Source: Pontibacter sp. G13 (GTDB taxonomy: Bacteria > Bacteroidota > Bacteroidia > J057). Taken from it: a stretch of DNA of 64,000 bases. The translations under genes and the position numbers were made by a program. The stretch spans positions 3,864,501 through 3,928,500 of the forward strand of contig NZ_CP134696.1 in NCBI RefSeq assembly GCF_031851795.1, given 5' to 3'. This document shows, in pieces, positions 9,734 through 18,236 of this stretch. Below the pieces are notes generated by a model, which did not search any database, was not told the origin of the DNA, and worked only from the letters and a program-made list of their open reading frames with translations. The stretch's first letter is position 1, and the number at the start of each line of letters is the position of its first letter.

Positions 9734-11515
9734 ATGACGAAGCAAGTTCCTCCCCTTTATGGAAGGTTTCAGTTTTCCTCCATCGGCTCCTATCTCCAAC
9801 GACTCGGACTGGTGTCAGAGGCATTTATGGGAACGGCACCTTTCAATTCCTATGTCACCACCTTTGATGGAAATCGCCAGTATGGGTTGACAGCGGATGA
9901 ATTGCAGGAACTATTCGTCCATTCACAGGGACAGATTCACACCATGCGTGCTTCCTGTTCAGGACCTGAAAATCGCAGTGTCAATATCAATGTCAAATTC
10001 GCCAAAGGTGAAGAGGCGGGGGAAGGCCAATTTGTGATTGTTGCTCGCAGCCCTTTCGAGAACAGGCAGATCAGCGATATGCTCAATGGCGTTTGGCATC
10101 CTCAAGAACCTGATCAAACCGAGAAGTATGAGAGAATAGGGGAGATCATCACTTTCGTCCGATCAAGAAGAGCCCATTTGGACGAGGAAGAGCGGAAGCG
10201 TGTAGCCAAGGTGCGACTTGCTCCTCCAGCTCCTCCCAAACCCAAGCCCAGTCCGCATATCTATCGACACCAGACGGTTCGGGACCGATTTACCTTCCAA
10301 GACCAGATTCCGATTGGGACTATCCTCAGCATGATGGATCAGATTTCCTATCAATATTTGGGCGGCGCTCCCTTTAATATCAGAATCATCACCAATCAGG
10401 GCGACCCCATTTCTGATTTGAGCCCTAATGGATTAAGGAAATTTTTCGATAAACGCAGAGCCCAAGTCCTCAAGATTCTCATGGATGCTGCCACTGCCAA
10501 AGGAGAATTGGTCGATCTGGTCCTGCTGTATGGTATGATGGCTACCCGTGAAAACGCAGAGTTGCAAGTCAATCACCCCCGCGCCAAAGAAATCCAAAAT
10601 CTAGTCCGCACAACCCTTGAGCAGCGGATCGCCAAAGTCGGTATCTCGGATGAGGTCAGTACTGAGTTATTCCAATTTGAGCGTAGTAATTTTTCCATTG
10701 AACGGGTCATCAAGTTGATGGAGGCGATTTCCTCCAAATATCTGGAGCGACAAAGACCACTGGTTTTCCTGACTACTTTTGATGGAGATATCTATCCGTC
10801 ATTGACGCTGGATCAGGTTGAACGATTGTATACTCGGCTTCACAAGCATACCAGCAATCTGCTATTCGGGGTCAATCATCCCGCAACGAGGCAGACCTTC
10901 AGCTTGCTTTTCCAGTTTGAGACCAAAAATCAGTCCCCTTATGGAAGTGTCAGTATGAGGTGGGGAAGCGAGAAAACGCACCGGATGATTCAAGGTATCA
11001 TCCGCGAACAGCTTCAATTGAAGCCGCTGAATGAACCCATCGAAATTGCCAATACACTTCCCTATGATGGAAAACCCAGTCAAATGGTGATTTCGCCTGT
11101 TTTTGAGGGTCGGGACTTTGACTTTCAACAACGGACGGCATTGATCGCCATGCCACTAGAAGCATATTGGTCGGATACCATTTGGATGCAGATTTCACAG
11201 TCGCTCAAAAACATTGGTTGGGACACGATGCGTGCCGAGGCCTTGTTTGGCAAACAAGTCCTTGAACCTACTTGGAATTGGCTCAATGAGGTGGATTTGC
11301 TTGTGGCAGACCTCACCTACAAGCATCCGGATGTATTCTACAAATTGGGAATGGCCCACACGCTTGGGAAAAAGGTGATCATGATTTCGCAGCATGCACG
11401 GGATTTTCCCCCAGATTTCAAGAAGTTCCCACATATCGTCTATGACAACAATATCCACGGACTTCAGCGTCTCGCCAATCGACTTGTCGAAATCGTCAAA
11501 TCCCAATCCAGCTAG
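9734..11515 (+). CDS. Three-repeat protein with C-terminal deoxyribosyltransferase/TIR-like domain
   Basis: The first part is not a family I recognise. Residues about 12-122, 185-298 and 313-427 are three divergent copies of one roughly 115-residue unit. Each has a helix ending in S-x-x-Y/F-L/M-G, then a strand like APFN..TTFDG, a turn, LTxDxLxxLF, paired strands, and a closing helix. A proline-rich linker (APPAPPKPKPSP, 163-174) joins copies 1 and 2. Residues about 465-590 resemble nucleoside 2-deoxyribosyltransferase/TIR-like NAD-processing folds: TALIAMPLEAYWSDTIW, then VDLLVADLTYKHPDVFYKLG and MAHTLGKKVIMI. Relatives usually read YELG where this reads YKLG, so the expected catalytic Glu is Lys538. 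No signal peptide or membrane segment is seen. It stands alone, divergent from queA. Confidence 0.7.
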   Translation: MTKQVPPLYGRFQFSSIGSYLQRLGLVSEAFMGTAPFNSYVTTFDGNRQYGLTADELQELFVHSQGQIHTMRASCSGPENRSVNINVKFAKGEEAGEGQFVIVARSPFENRQISDMLNGVWHPQEPDQTEKYERIGEIITFVRSRRAHLDEEERKRVAKVRLAPPAPPKPKPSPHIYRHQTVRDRFTFQDQIPIGTILSMMDQISYQYLGGAPFNIRIITNQGDPISDLSPNGLRKFFDKRRAQVLKILMDAATAKGELVDLVLLYGMMATRENAELQVNHPRAKEIQNLVRTTLEQRIAKVGISDEVSTELFQFERSNFSIERVIKLMEAISSKYLERQRPLVFLTTFDGDIYPSLTLDQVERLYTRLHKHTSNLLFGVNHPATRQTFSLLFQFETKNQSPYGSVSMRWGSEKTHRMIQGIIREQLQLKPLNEPIEIANTLPYDGKPSQMVISPVFEGRDFDFQQRTALIAMPLEAYWSDTIWMQISQSLKNIGWDTMRAEALFGKQVLEPTWNWLNEVDLLVADLTYKHPDVFYKLGMAHTLGKKVIMISQHARDFPPDFKKFPHIVYDNNIHGLQRLANRLVEIVKSQSS

Positions 11516-11608: not shown

Positions 11609-13501
11609 ATGCGTACCAGGTTTTTTTATGTGTTGGTGGCCCTCCTGATGGTTGGGACCATCGTATTCCGCTGTTCTCAAAGAGCCACTACATGGAGTAG
11701 CTTGGACCCCGAAAACGCATACACGGGAATCGAATCTTGCCAATCCTGCCATCAGCGAATCTATGATTCATTCCTTCAGACCGGCATGGGCAAATCCCTT
11801 TATCGGCCAGATCCTCACCAGCAGATCGAAGACTTTAGGCCCGATGTTGCGGTGCATGACACCTCCCGAAATTTCTGGTATCAGCCACTTTGGAAAGGGG
11901 ATTCCATGTACATCAGGGAGTTTCGGCTGTCGGAAATGGATACGGTGTATGTCCGGGAGGAACGCATAGATTACGTGGTGGGCTCGGGGCATCAAACGCG
12001 ATCGTACTTGATCGAGCGCGAGGGATTTCTTTACGAAGCTCCGATTACCTGGTATGTCCAAGCGGGGATTTGGGATATGAGCCCCGGGTATGCCGAGCAT
12101 AATTCTCGATTTGATCGCGAAGTAGGACAAGATTGCATGGGCTGCCATACCGGGCATATTGATTATGTAGAAGGCTCCAAAAATCGATACCGATATATTT
12201 CTGCGGGCATAGACTGTGAGAAATGCCACGGCCCGGGTGAAGATCACATTCGGAGGATAGAAGCTGGACAATTGATCGATGTGGGCGAGGAAACGGATTT
12301 TTCGATCGTCAATCCCGCCAAACTCCCAGTGGAGGAACAGTTTTCTGTCTGTCAACAATGCCACTTACAGGGTACCAATGTCTGGAAGTCCAACGCTACG
12401 AGCATTCTGGATTTTAGGCCAGCGATGAAATTGGAGGAAGTAGTAGATGTCTTTTTGGTAGATGATGGACAAACAGAGGACTTTGGGATTGCTTCGCATG
12501 CTGAAAGACTTCAAGCATCTCAATGTTTCATTCAGTCTCAGGGGAAACTGACTTGCACTACTTGCCATGATCCGCACCGCGCACTCGAATCAGGGGACAC
12601 GCAAGTGTACATTCGTCAGTGCCAGCAATGTCATCAATCGGATAAACACCTCACTTGTGGAGTGAATCCAGAGCAAATGGAATCAGCAAAAGGAAATTGT
12701 GTGAGTTGCCACATGCCATCCAGTGGTACATCTGATATTCCCCACGTCCGATTTCACGATCATAAGATCCGTGTCGTGTCTCAGGATACAGTGAAGGTAG
12801 ACGAAGTGATCGAATACTTTAGGTTGTTTCCTGCACAATCTGGCAATGTGTCTCCTTCCATTCAAGGTAGGGCATGGTTGAGTTGGTACGAAGAACAATC
12901 CTCCAGCCCTCAATGGCTAGATTCTGCCTTGTCGAGTCTGAGACCTTCCGATGGTTTTGCTTACGCTAGGGCGCAGTACTATGCTGGCAAATATCAAGAA
13001 GCACTTACCGTATTGAATGCCAGCCCCTCCGAGCCAGCTTCTCAATTTCTGAAAGGAGAAGTGCTGGAGTCAATGGGTAAATTTGCAGAGGCGGAGCAGG
13101 TATTCCGAGGAATATTCGAAGAAAACCCCAATCGTCTTGAAGCAGGATACCGAGCTTTGACTGCTCAGCTGAAGGCGCAAGCGGGGAATCCTCAAATCTT
13201 GGACAGTGTGCAGGCTCAGATTCAACAATTGTTGGCCATCAAGCCATTTGATGTTCGATTTTTGGGTACGAGCGGATTCCTGTATCTCAATCAAGGAAAC
13301 CTCAGATCGGCGGAGCGAATGTTGGTGCAAGCTCTCCGATTGGACCCGGACAATCTGCAAGCGCTGGAAAATATGATCTACACTCAAGCGATGAAAGGGA
13401 ATGAAATTCAGGTGGAAGAATATCTGAATCAACTCCGGAATTTGGGTCCGGATCAGGCTTTGATTGATCGCGTGGAGCAGCAACTGACAGTTTGGAAATA
13501 A
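11609..13501 (+). CDS. Seven-heme c-type cytochrome with C-terminal TPRs
   Basis: The 630-residue protein begins with a hydrophobic export signal or anchor (residues 5-22) followed by Cys22; the context is not a clean lipobox. Seven CxxCH heme-binding motifs are present: CQSCH, CMGCH, CEKCH, CQQCH, CTTCH, CQQCH and CVSCH, all in residues 50-375. Distal His residues such as HTGH and HDPH look like cytochrome c554-type ligands. The last 190 residues contain tetratricopeptide repeats (YYAGKYQEALTVL, FLKGEVLESMGKFAEAEQVF, NLRSAERMLVQALRLDPDNL). The family is periplasmic or surface electron transfer, and the partner is unknown. It may head a run with DUF4286, PrcB-like, M48 and speE genes, with gaps of 8-60 bp. 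Confidence 0.9.
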   Translation: MRTRFFYVLVALLMVGTIVFRCSQRATTWSSLDPENAYTGIESCQSCHQRIYDSFLQTGMGKSLYRPDPHQQIEDFRPDVAVHDTSRNFWYQPLWKGDSMYIREFRLSEMDTVYVREERIDYVVGSGHQTRSYLIEREGFLYEAPITWYVQAGIWDMSPGYAEHNSRFDREVGQDCMGCHTGHIDYVEGSKNRYRYISAGIDCEKCHGPGEDHIRRIEAGQLIDVGEETDFSIVNPAKLPVEEQFSVCQQCHLQGTNVWKSNATSILDFRPAMKLEEVVDVFLVDDGQTEDFGIASHAERLQASQCFIQSQGKLTCTTCHDPHRALESGDTQVYIRQCQQCHQSDKHLTCGVNPEQMESAKGNCVSCHMPSSGTSDIPHVRFHDHKIRVVSQDTVKVDEVIEYFRLFPAQSGNVSPSIQGRAWLSWYEEQSSSPQWLDSALSSLRPSDGFAYARAQYYAGKYQEALTVLNASPSEPASQFLKGEVLESMGKFAEAEQVFRGIFEENPNRLEAGYRALTAQLKAQAGNPQILDSVQAQIQQLLAIKPFDVRFLGTSGFLYLNQGNLRSAERMLVQALRLDPDNLQALENMIYTQAMKGNEIQVEEYLNQLRNLGPDQALIDRVEQQLTVWK

Positions 13502-16616: not shown

Positions 16617-18236
16617 ATGCAAGATTCTCCCACCGACATTGCTGAGGACCAAGAATCCTCCCTTTCCTCCAAATCTCCCGCAGAAATTGGGATTCTATTG
16701 GTTTCTGTAGGGATCATTGCCATCTGTGGCATCCTCTACGAATTGCTGATCAGTAGTATCACTTCCTATTTTCAAGGAAGCAGCATCACCCATTTTTCGA
16801 TTGTGATCGGGTTGTTTCTATCATTCATGGGCGTGGGATCTTACCTGTCGAAATTCATCCGCAAGGACCTATTGCAATGGTTTGTCCGATTCGAAATTTT
16901 ACTTGGGATCATTGGAGGGGTATCCGCCGGATTGTTATATGCGGCATTTTCATTGACGCCCTATTTCTATGCGGTAGCCTTTCTGCTGATCGCTTCACTT
17001 GGCTGTTTGATCGGATTGGAAATTCCCATTCTCACCCGAGTGATGCGAGAGTTTGATTCACTGAAGGATGCAGTCGCCAATGTCTTGGCCTTCGATTACC
17101 TAGGATCGCTAGTCGCTTCTGTGGCATTTCCGCTGATCCTCCTTCCATTTTTGGGGATCATGCGTACGTCCTTTTTCATTGGAATCCTGAACCTATGTGT
17201 GGCTGCCGTGAATATATGGGTGTTCAGAAATGAGCTCAAGCAAGTCCGCAGCTTGTTTGTGAACACCGGCCTTTCTATGCTGCTCCTGATTGTGGGATTT
17301 GCAGGCTCCTTCCAAATCAATGGATTCTTTGAGCAATTCCTTTTCAAGGATGAGGTCATGCTATCCAAGCAATCCACCTATCAGCACATGGTCTTGACCA
17401 AGCGAAATCAAGACATACGATTGTTTATCAATGGAAACCTCCAATTTGCTTCGGTAGACGAACATCGATATCACGAACCGCTAGTTCATGTGCCAATGAC
17501 CATGGCCCTGAAACCTGAGAAGGTGCTGATCCTTGGAGGAGGCGATGGCTTGGCTTTGCGGGAGGTATGGAAACATCAGGAGGTTCAACATGTCGATCTT
17601 GTGGACCTTGATCCTGAAATGACCCACATGGGAACTCGCCATCCTGTTTTCACACGTCTCAATCAGTCTTCTATGCTTGATCCAAGGCTGACGGTGTATA
17701 ATCAGGATGCCTTTCAATTCGTGGAGAAAAGCTCAAATTTTTACGATGTCATCATCATCGACCTGCCTGATCCTAACCATGTCGGCTTGGGGAAATTATA
17801 CGCTAAATCCTTTTACGAATTGATCCGAGATCGACTCTCTCAAGGTGGGGTAATGGTGACTCAATCCACCTCTCCCTATTTTGCAAGACCTGCCTTTTGG
17901 TGTATTCACGAGACCGTGAAATCTGTTTTTCCGACGACTGTTCCCTATCAAGTGTATGTGCCTTCTTTTGGCCAATGGGGATTCAATCTAGCCATGAAAA
18001 CACCGGGAAGAATCAAAGCAGGAAAAGAGGTTTCACCTGCTCAAGACCAGATGACGGACATTCTGGGAGAGCGGCTGTTTGCCGATTCTACCATTACCTA
18101 CCAATTTCTGGCACCCAATATGATTCCCGCTTTGTTCACGTTCGGAGCAGACGTGGCACCTGTTCCTGTGGAGGTCAACCAGATGGACAATCAACAATTG
18201 GTCAGATACTATGACCAAAGCTGGGAGCAATGGTAG
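16617..18236 (+). CDS. speE: Membrane-anchored spermidine synthase-like aminopropyltransferase
   Basis: The 539-residue protein has an N-terminal membrane part with six to seven helices (residues about 25-240) and a C-terminal aminopropyltransferase domain. The latter shows the decarboxylated-SAM site GGGDG (residues 307-311), VDLVDLDPEM, the catalytic-loop block DVIIIDLPDPNHVGLGKLYA, and a late WGFNLAMKTPG. This fused architecture is known for bacterial SpeE-like proteins. Whether the substrate is putrescine or another amine is not shown. It starts 60 bp after the M48 gene stop and is closed by a terminator. No ornithine or arginine decarboxylase gene is in the window. Confidence 0.9.
   Translation: MQDSPTDIAEDQESSLSSKSPAEIGILLVSVGIIAICGILYELLISSITSYFQGSSITHFSIVIGLFLSFMGVGSYLSKFIRKDLLQWFVRFEILLGIIGGVSAGLLYAAFSLTPYFYAVAFLLIASLGCLIGLEIPILTRVMREFDSLKDAVANVLAFDYLGSLVASVAFPLILLPFLGIMRTSFFIGILNLCVAAVNIWVFRNELKQVRSLFVNTGLSMLLLIVGFAGSFQINGFFEQFLFKDEVMLSKQSTYQHMVLTKRNQDIRLFINGNLQFASVDEHRYHEPLVHVPMTMALKPEKVLILGGGDGLALREVWKHQEVQHVDLVDLDPEMTHMGTRHPVFTRLNQSSMLDPRLTVYNQDAFQFVEKSSNFYDVIIIDLPDPNHVGLGKLYAKSFYELIRDRLSQGGVMVTQSTSPYFARPAFWCIHETVKSVFPTTVPYQVYVPSFGQWGFNLAMKTPGRIKAGKEVSPAQDQMTDILGERLFADSTITYQFLAPNMIPALFTFGADVAPVPVEVNQMDNQQLVRYYDQSWEQW

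Follow-up and report, generated by a model that had tools for sequence, protein, structure and literature searches.

Gene and repeat architecture

The window, a stretch of 64,000 nucleotides of Pontibacter sp. G13 DNA, carries on its forward strand a gene encoding a protein with three related repeats and a C-terminal domain of the kind found in DNPH1 and the NDTs. The features of the gene and its product are the following, in window positions.

9734..11515, + strand: full open reading frame, 593 amino acids, ATG start (homologues collinear along its length)
9755..10087, + strand: repeat 1, residues 8–118 (profile comparison, predicted structure, shuffles)
10109..10216, + strand: long predicted linker helix, residues 126–161 (AlphaFold2 model; poorly conserved stretch)
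10271..10621, + strand: repeat 2, residues 180–296 (profile comparison, predicted structure; residues 180–300 folded alone)
10658..11014, + strand: repeat 3, residues 309–427 (profile comparison, predicted structure, shuffles)
11030..11098, + strand: low-confidence linker, residues 433–455 (pLDDT < 50)
11123..11512, + strand: predicted DNPH1/NDT-like C-terminal domain, residues 464–593 (sequence match to Rcl; predicted-structure comparison)
11342..11344, + strand: codon of Lys537, at the site of the nucleophilic glutamate of YELG (alignment to Rcl; family and outgroup counts)

Homologues mostly start just ahead of a conserved PLYGRF motif. The family alignment comprised 12 members, the window protein and 11 others with 24–46% identity to it; one of these, L022, was truncated by the end of its contig. 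A second copy in the same genome shared 26% identity with the window protein (E = 1.8e-43), and its surroundings held ORFs that, named by reading, were RecX-like and D-Ala-D-Ala ligase-like. The window protein had no match in NCBIfam and solely sub-threshold matches in Pfam: PF05014 scored 13.5 bits, where the gathering score is 28.8, and APP1_cat 12.4 bits, where it is 27.1. PADLOC returned two weak TIR-type matches (E = 0.019 and 0.036), and the PHROG matches (best E = 2.1e-15) were restricted to residues 435 onward, barring one at E = 0.37.

The three units of about 115 residues are homologous. Comparison of family profiles, built from sub-alignments of 11, 12 and 12 sequences for repeats 1, 2 and 3, gave E-values of 2.9e-15 (repeats 1 and 2), 3.6e-13 (1 and 3) and 8.3e-14 (2 and 3) over 107–117 aligned columns. 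With the window protein alone, the observed score was reached by 0/500 shuffles for repeats 1 and 2, 0/500 for 1 and 3, and 4/500 for 2 and 3; in the same shuffle test, each repeat scored at background against the C-terminal domain. The same order of elements was seen three times in the predicted structure. The preliminary description, made from the letters of the sequence, had placed three repeats at residues 12–122, 185–298 and 313–427, limits that fit these results. It had also read literal motifs as recurring in all three copies, and this was not borne out: APFN occurs in repeats 1 and 2, TTFDG in repeats 1 and 3, and YLG in repeat 2 alone, so that what recurs is the profile. The full-length AlphaFold2 model, made from the 12-sequence alignment, had a mean pLDDT of 79.1 and a pTM of 0.32; the latter value makes the placement of the domains relative to one another uncertain.

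For fold comparison, repeat 2 was modelled by itself (residues 180–300) from an alignment of 22 of 35 collected repeats. The model was of high confidence (pLDDT 95.5, pTM 0.86), with the element order b-a-b-b-a-b-b-b-a. Foldseek against the PDB returned nothing at an E-value of 0.001 or better. By VIA-align, the top match was residues 2540–2690 of SZT2 (9o5a_D; Z 8.7, rmsd 2.6, 112 aligned), with an AdoMetDC-like fold (1vr7_B; Z 8.2, 90 aligned) and spermine synthase (3c6k_A; Z 8.2, 82 aligned) close behind; these Z values are about what the tool gives as usual when a model has no clear match. The SZT2 region, which belongs to KICSTOR, and the N-terminal fold of AdoMetDC and spermine synthase are thus the nearest solved folds to repeat 2, at 8–13% identity, which does not imply a common function, and we treat the relation as a lead only. 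A longin/roadblock identity was considered and is not claimed: in the search with the full-length model, the rows for MON1-CCZ1 and GATOR1-KICSTOR that had suggested it showed TM-scores of about 0.1 and rmsd above 20, and with repeat 2 alone just the SZT2 region remained at the top. The lack of any other prominent family is not itself evidence. No family rose above weak chance levels when the repeats of the 12 members were compared with Pfam, or those of the window protein with NCBIfam, PADLOC and PHROGs. The repeat is therefore, as had been proposed, a domain with no match in the family libraries searched and no convincing solved counterpart; it appears from the model to be a confidently predicted domain, undescribed in those libraries.

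The C-terminal domain and its missing glutamate

An NDT- or TIR-like fold at the C-terminus had also been anticipated. By sequence the evidence was weak: among PDB chains, Rcl/DNPH1 matched at E = 0.0021, with YKLG of the window protein opposite YELG, and PF05014 was matched by 8 of the 12 family members (best E = 0.0073). By predicted structure it was clear. In the comparison of the whole model, human DNPH1 (8rps_B) aligned to residues 464–592 with Z 14.9 and rmsd 2.2 over 122 residues, and TMt to the DNPH1/Rcl rows was 0.63–0.75. Deoxyribosyltransferases followed at Z of about 12–14 and TIR and SPARTA chains at about 12–13, including 8qlo_A (Z 13.2, 122 aligned) and 4c6t_B (Z 13.2, 127 aligned). 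The TIR likeness, which lies below the best DNPH1 match, is one of fold class. The family differs from DNPH1/Rcl and the NDTs of PF05014 in two respects: its domain is fused to three repeats, and the nucleophilic glutamate has been replaced.

The preliminary description had correctly recognized that lysine takes the place of the glutamate in YELG but numbered it 538; the residue is Lys537 (Y536-K537-L538-G539). The nucleophilic glutamate was present in none of the 12 family members, compared with 48/48 distinct outgroup domains, and position 537 of the family was occupied by K (six), Q (three), R, I and A (one each). The outgroup domains came from the 52 best-scoring loci among a longer list of matches (L035–L057 and L083–L111); an earlier count with a smaller outgroup had found the glutamate in 23/23 domains. 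Asn at position 533 showed the same division, being absent from all 12 members and present in 46 of the 48 outgroup domains. Y536, G539 and A541 were invariant in the 12 members. The catalytic aspartate of DNPH1, D80, fell opposite T513 in a pairwise alignment, in a stretch that aligns unreliably and where I, V or M is found in the outgroup domains. In a FastTree tree the family formed a single clade (local support 0.911). Because this one clade is the one without the glutamate, the nucleophile was most simply lost once, in the family's ancestor.

A precedent exists for a member of this fold that binds its substrate and does not cleave it. According to PMC10603095, Glu104 of human DNPH1 is the nucleophile and the E104Q substitution inactivates the enzyme, and E104Q DNPH1 was crystallized with intact hmdUMP bound.

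Conservation of the domain depended on the set of members compared. Among the seven closest members (the window protein and L018–L023), mean pairwise identity was 0.521 in the C-terminal domain versus 0.407, 0.351 and 0.411 in repeats 1, 2 and 3, and 0.175 (residues 123–179) and 0.226 in the linkers. With the full set of 12, the C-terminal domain stood at 0.354 and the three repeats at 0.373, 0.299 and 0.317. Within the closest seven, position 537 was always K, Q or R; His531 and Asp533 each occurred in six of the seven, and His531, Asp533 and Lys537 together in four. A paralogue in G008 (L028:8958-10226, − strand) retains three repeats but lacks the C-terminal domain, and in its G009 counterpart, L026, which shares neighbors with it, the C-terminal domain has diverged. 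Judged from these sequences, the domain is kept in the main clade and is not required everywhere.

Distribution and genomic context

Homologues were present in 9 of the 13 genomes of the window's family, the window's own included; the copy in G005 was cut by a contig end. The underlying scan with the window protein had matched 10 of the 13 at E = 0.001 or better, with two rows from G012 representing one protein. One genome, G004, was removed as spurious, its match (E = 2.2e-5) being by reading an SMC-like coiled-coil ORF. A second match in G005 was likewise set aside as a separate protein: L029:419-2713 (− strand), of 764 amino acids, has two tandem NDT-like stretches that by reading both keep the glutamate (PF05014, E = 1.5e-7), behind an N-terminal half that looks helical.

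Outside the family, the window protein matched 0/9 genomes from other families of its order. In a sample of the class, a repeat profile matched 11/395 genomes at E = 0.01, seven from the window's own family and four weakly (E = 0.0017–0.007); in a sample of the phylum, an N-terminal profile matched 1/395 genomes, the window's own. Clear repeats outside the family were therefore found in neither sample of 395 genomes. Viral scans found no relatives. One of two genome-contig scans gave no match and the other confirmed 4 of 18 candidates, in Bacteroidetes or Bacteroidia MAGs; these four loci were taken to be G012, G006, G005 and G001 and added no members. Among the matches listed for phages (both of 2 records, two accessions of one phage) and plasmids (8 of the 20 records), the aligned part was confined to the C-terminal third, starting no earlier than residue 407, and no phage or plasmid record covered 80% of the protein.

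Outgroup relatives of the C-terminal domain carry partner modules other than the repeats. In L037 the module is AbiJ_NTD5 (Pfam, E = 3.5e-35), and L039 and L040 were judged alike by reading only. All three have a homologous C-terminal domain behind an N-terminal module; unlike the family they retain the glutamate (YETG), their N-terminal module is unrelated to the repeats, and they are 256–267 amino acids long. AbiJ-NTD5 is described as fused to TIR domains and AbiJ-NTD1 to nucleoside deoxyribosyltransferase domains, in what are read as conflict systems, in PMC3710099. Since a glutamate-bearing relative stands behind AbiJ_NTD5 in L037, a defense ancestry is possible.

Upstream of the repeat gene, on the opposite strand and across a gap of 204 bp, lies queA. 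By NCBIfam cut-offs the flanking genes also include recR and a polyamine aminopropyltransferase; below the cut-offs there were matches nearby to a glycosyltransferase/sugar-transferase, a multiheme cytochrome with TPRs, a PrcB-like, an M48-like and a T9SS-sorted protein. Ten flanking proteins, four upstream and six downstream, were compared with PADLOC at E = 1e-5. Nine had no match; the tenth matched the mad2 model (1.8e-15) and the NCBIfam polyamine aminopropyltransferase (1.6e-182). No defense partner adjoining the repeat gene was recognized among the ten. The polyamine aminopropyltransferase gene (window 16617-18236) lies about 5 kb downstream and belongs to no cluster shared with the other loci compared; its nearness is curious, the AdoMetDC/spermine synthase fold being among the nearest to repeat 2.

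That the gene is encoded alone, as had been suggested, is uncertain. A gene for a multiheme cytochrome c with C-terminal TPRs (window 11609-13501) follows on the same strand after 93 bp, and the two genes adjoin in three genomes: in G012 the cytochrome gene is also directly downstream, and in G006 it overlaps the repeat gene if its first possible start codon is used. We considered the cytochrome as a partner of the repeat protein and rejected it, because elsewhere the two genes are present or absent independently. The cytochrome gene occurs in 14/22 genomes of the order (E = 1e-30), among them G002 and G007, seven other-family genomes that have no repeat gene, and G008 and G009, where it lies elsewhere in the genome. 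It was not found in G001, G005, G010 and G011, all of which carry the repeat gene and three of which are fragmented drafts. We read the adjacency as inherited.

Other neighbors are shared as well. Clusters 0 and 1, by reading GDPD-like and TonB-receptor-like, lie directly upstream of the repeat gene in G006, and cluster 0 has the same place in G010. In the window both lie upstream beyond four other genes. Three neighbor clusters are common to the second-copy loci of the window's genome (G000) and G012, and each of the two G008 loci has neighbors in common with its G009 counterpart. These shared clusters favor inheritance with the chromosome, and point to a vertically inherited gene over a mobile defense gene. 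In two genomes of one genus (G008, L024:5031-8774; G009, L025:11288-15053), two genes common to both, of about 271–274 amino acids (cluster 11) and 974–978 amino acids (cluster 10), come after the repeat gene on its own strand, closely spaced as in an operon.

A candidate pseudoenzyme and its alternatives

The reading that we favor, and to which we would give an even chance, is that the protein is a chromosomal pseudoenzyme in which a scaffold of repeats is joined to a catalytically dead binding module. With the glutamate replaced by K, Q, R, I or A throughout the family, the C-terminal domain would be unable to form a glycosyl-enzyme intermediate and might still bind a partner or a ligand resembling a (deoxy)nucleotide. 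The repeats would act as a scaffold that binds partners or self-associates, and occupancy by the ligand would alter their assembly. The protein, presumably vertically inherited even though 4 of the 13 family genomes are without the gene and, as judged by eye, cytosolic, would then serve as a regulator or adaptor and not as a nucleotide-cleaving toxin. Ligand binding is suggested by the predicted fold of the domain and its conservation. Binding of a ligand or partner may not be family-wide, since over the 12 members the domain is no better conserved than repeat 1, it has diverged in L026, and the G008 paralogue does without it.

The same paralogue and L026 agree with a different account, in which the C-terminal domain is a purely structural remnant without a small-molecule ligand, and the function lies in the repeats alone, as scaffold or oligomer. 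The disappearance of Asn533 together with the glutamate is also consistent with decay of this kind. A remnant would not, however, be expected to be the best conserved part of the seven closest members or to hold Y536, G539 and A541 invariant in all 12, and we regard this account as possible but doubtful. A rebuilt pocket is very improbable. It would carry out another reaction with His, Asp and Lys of the HPDVFYK stretch, which co-occur in four of the closest seven, but alternation among K, Q and R at position 537 even in those seven is unusual for a catalytic residue.

The remaining alternative is an active immune or stress effector whose repeats sense a trigger and whose C-terminal domain cleaves NAD+ or a nucleotide by means of other residues. 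The fold held in common with DNPH1, TIR and SPARTA chains is compatible with this, as are weak matches to a TIR effector model of PADLOC, reached at E = 0.01 by five of the 12 members (best 4.7e-5) and by the window protein at 0.019 only, and the relative L037 with its AbiJ_NTD5, a domain reported as fused to TIR and other presumed defense domains (PMC3710099). Against these stand the loss of the nucleophile in every member, the housekeeping-like flanks with their lack of a recognized defense partner, and the failure of any phage or plasmid record to cover 80% of the protein. An immune effector was for this reason set aside as first choice, its neighbors being housekeeping-like and its gene order shared, and such a role is unlikely. 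The preliminary description had offered a ligand-responsive effector and a degenerate binding module side by side; of the two, the absent glutamate, the paralogue that has no C-terminal domain and the neighborhood favor the binding module.

Extending the pseudoenzyme reading, the repeat may found a new domain family restricted to one family of Bacteroidota, its triple array forming a sensor or scaffold that works together with a pseudo-NDT receptor for nucleotides. A nucleotide-cleaving domain of the effector type would then have been turned once into a signaling or housekeeping ligand receptor, an idea that we offer as speculation. A search of open-access PMC for papers on a pseudoenzyme with a deoxyribosyltransferase found none. 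The C-terminal domain itself is a known fold in degenerate form. It represents an apparent single loss of a catalytic residue in a fold used for nucleotide sanitation and in presumed immune effectors, both TIR-like and NDT-like. As the domain stayed conserved in the main clade, the family offers a natural case for learning what NDT/TIR-like domains that no longer cut may bind.
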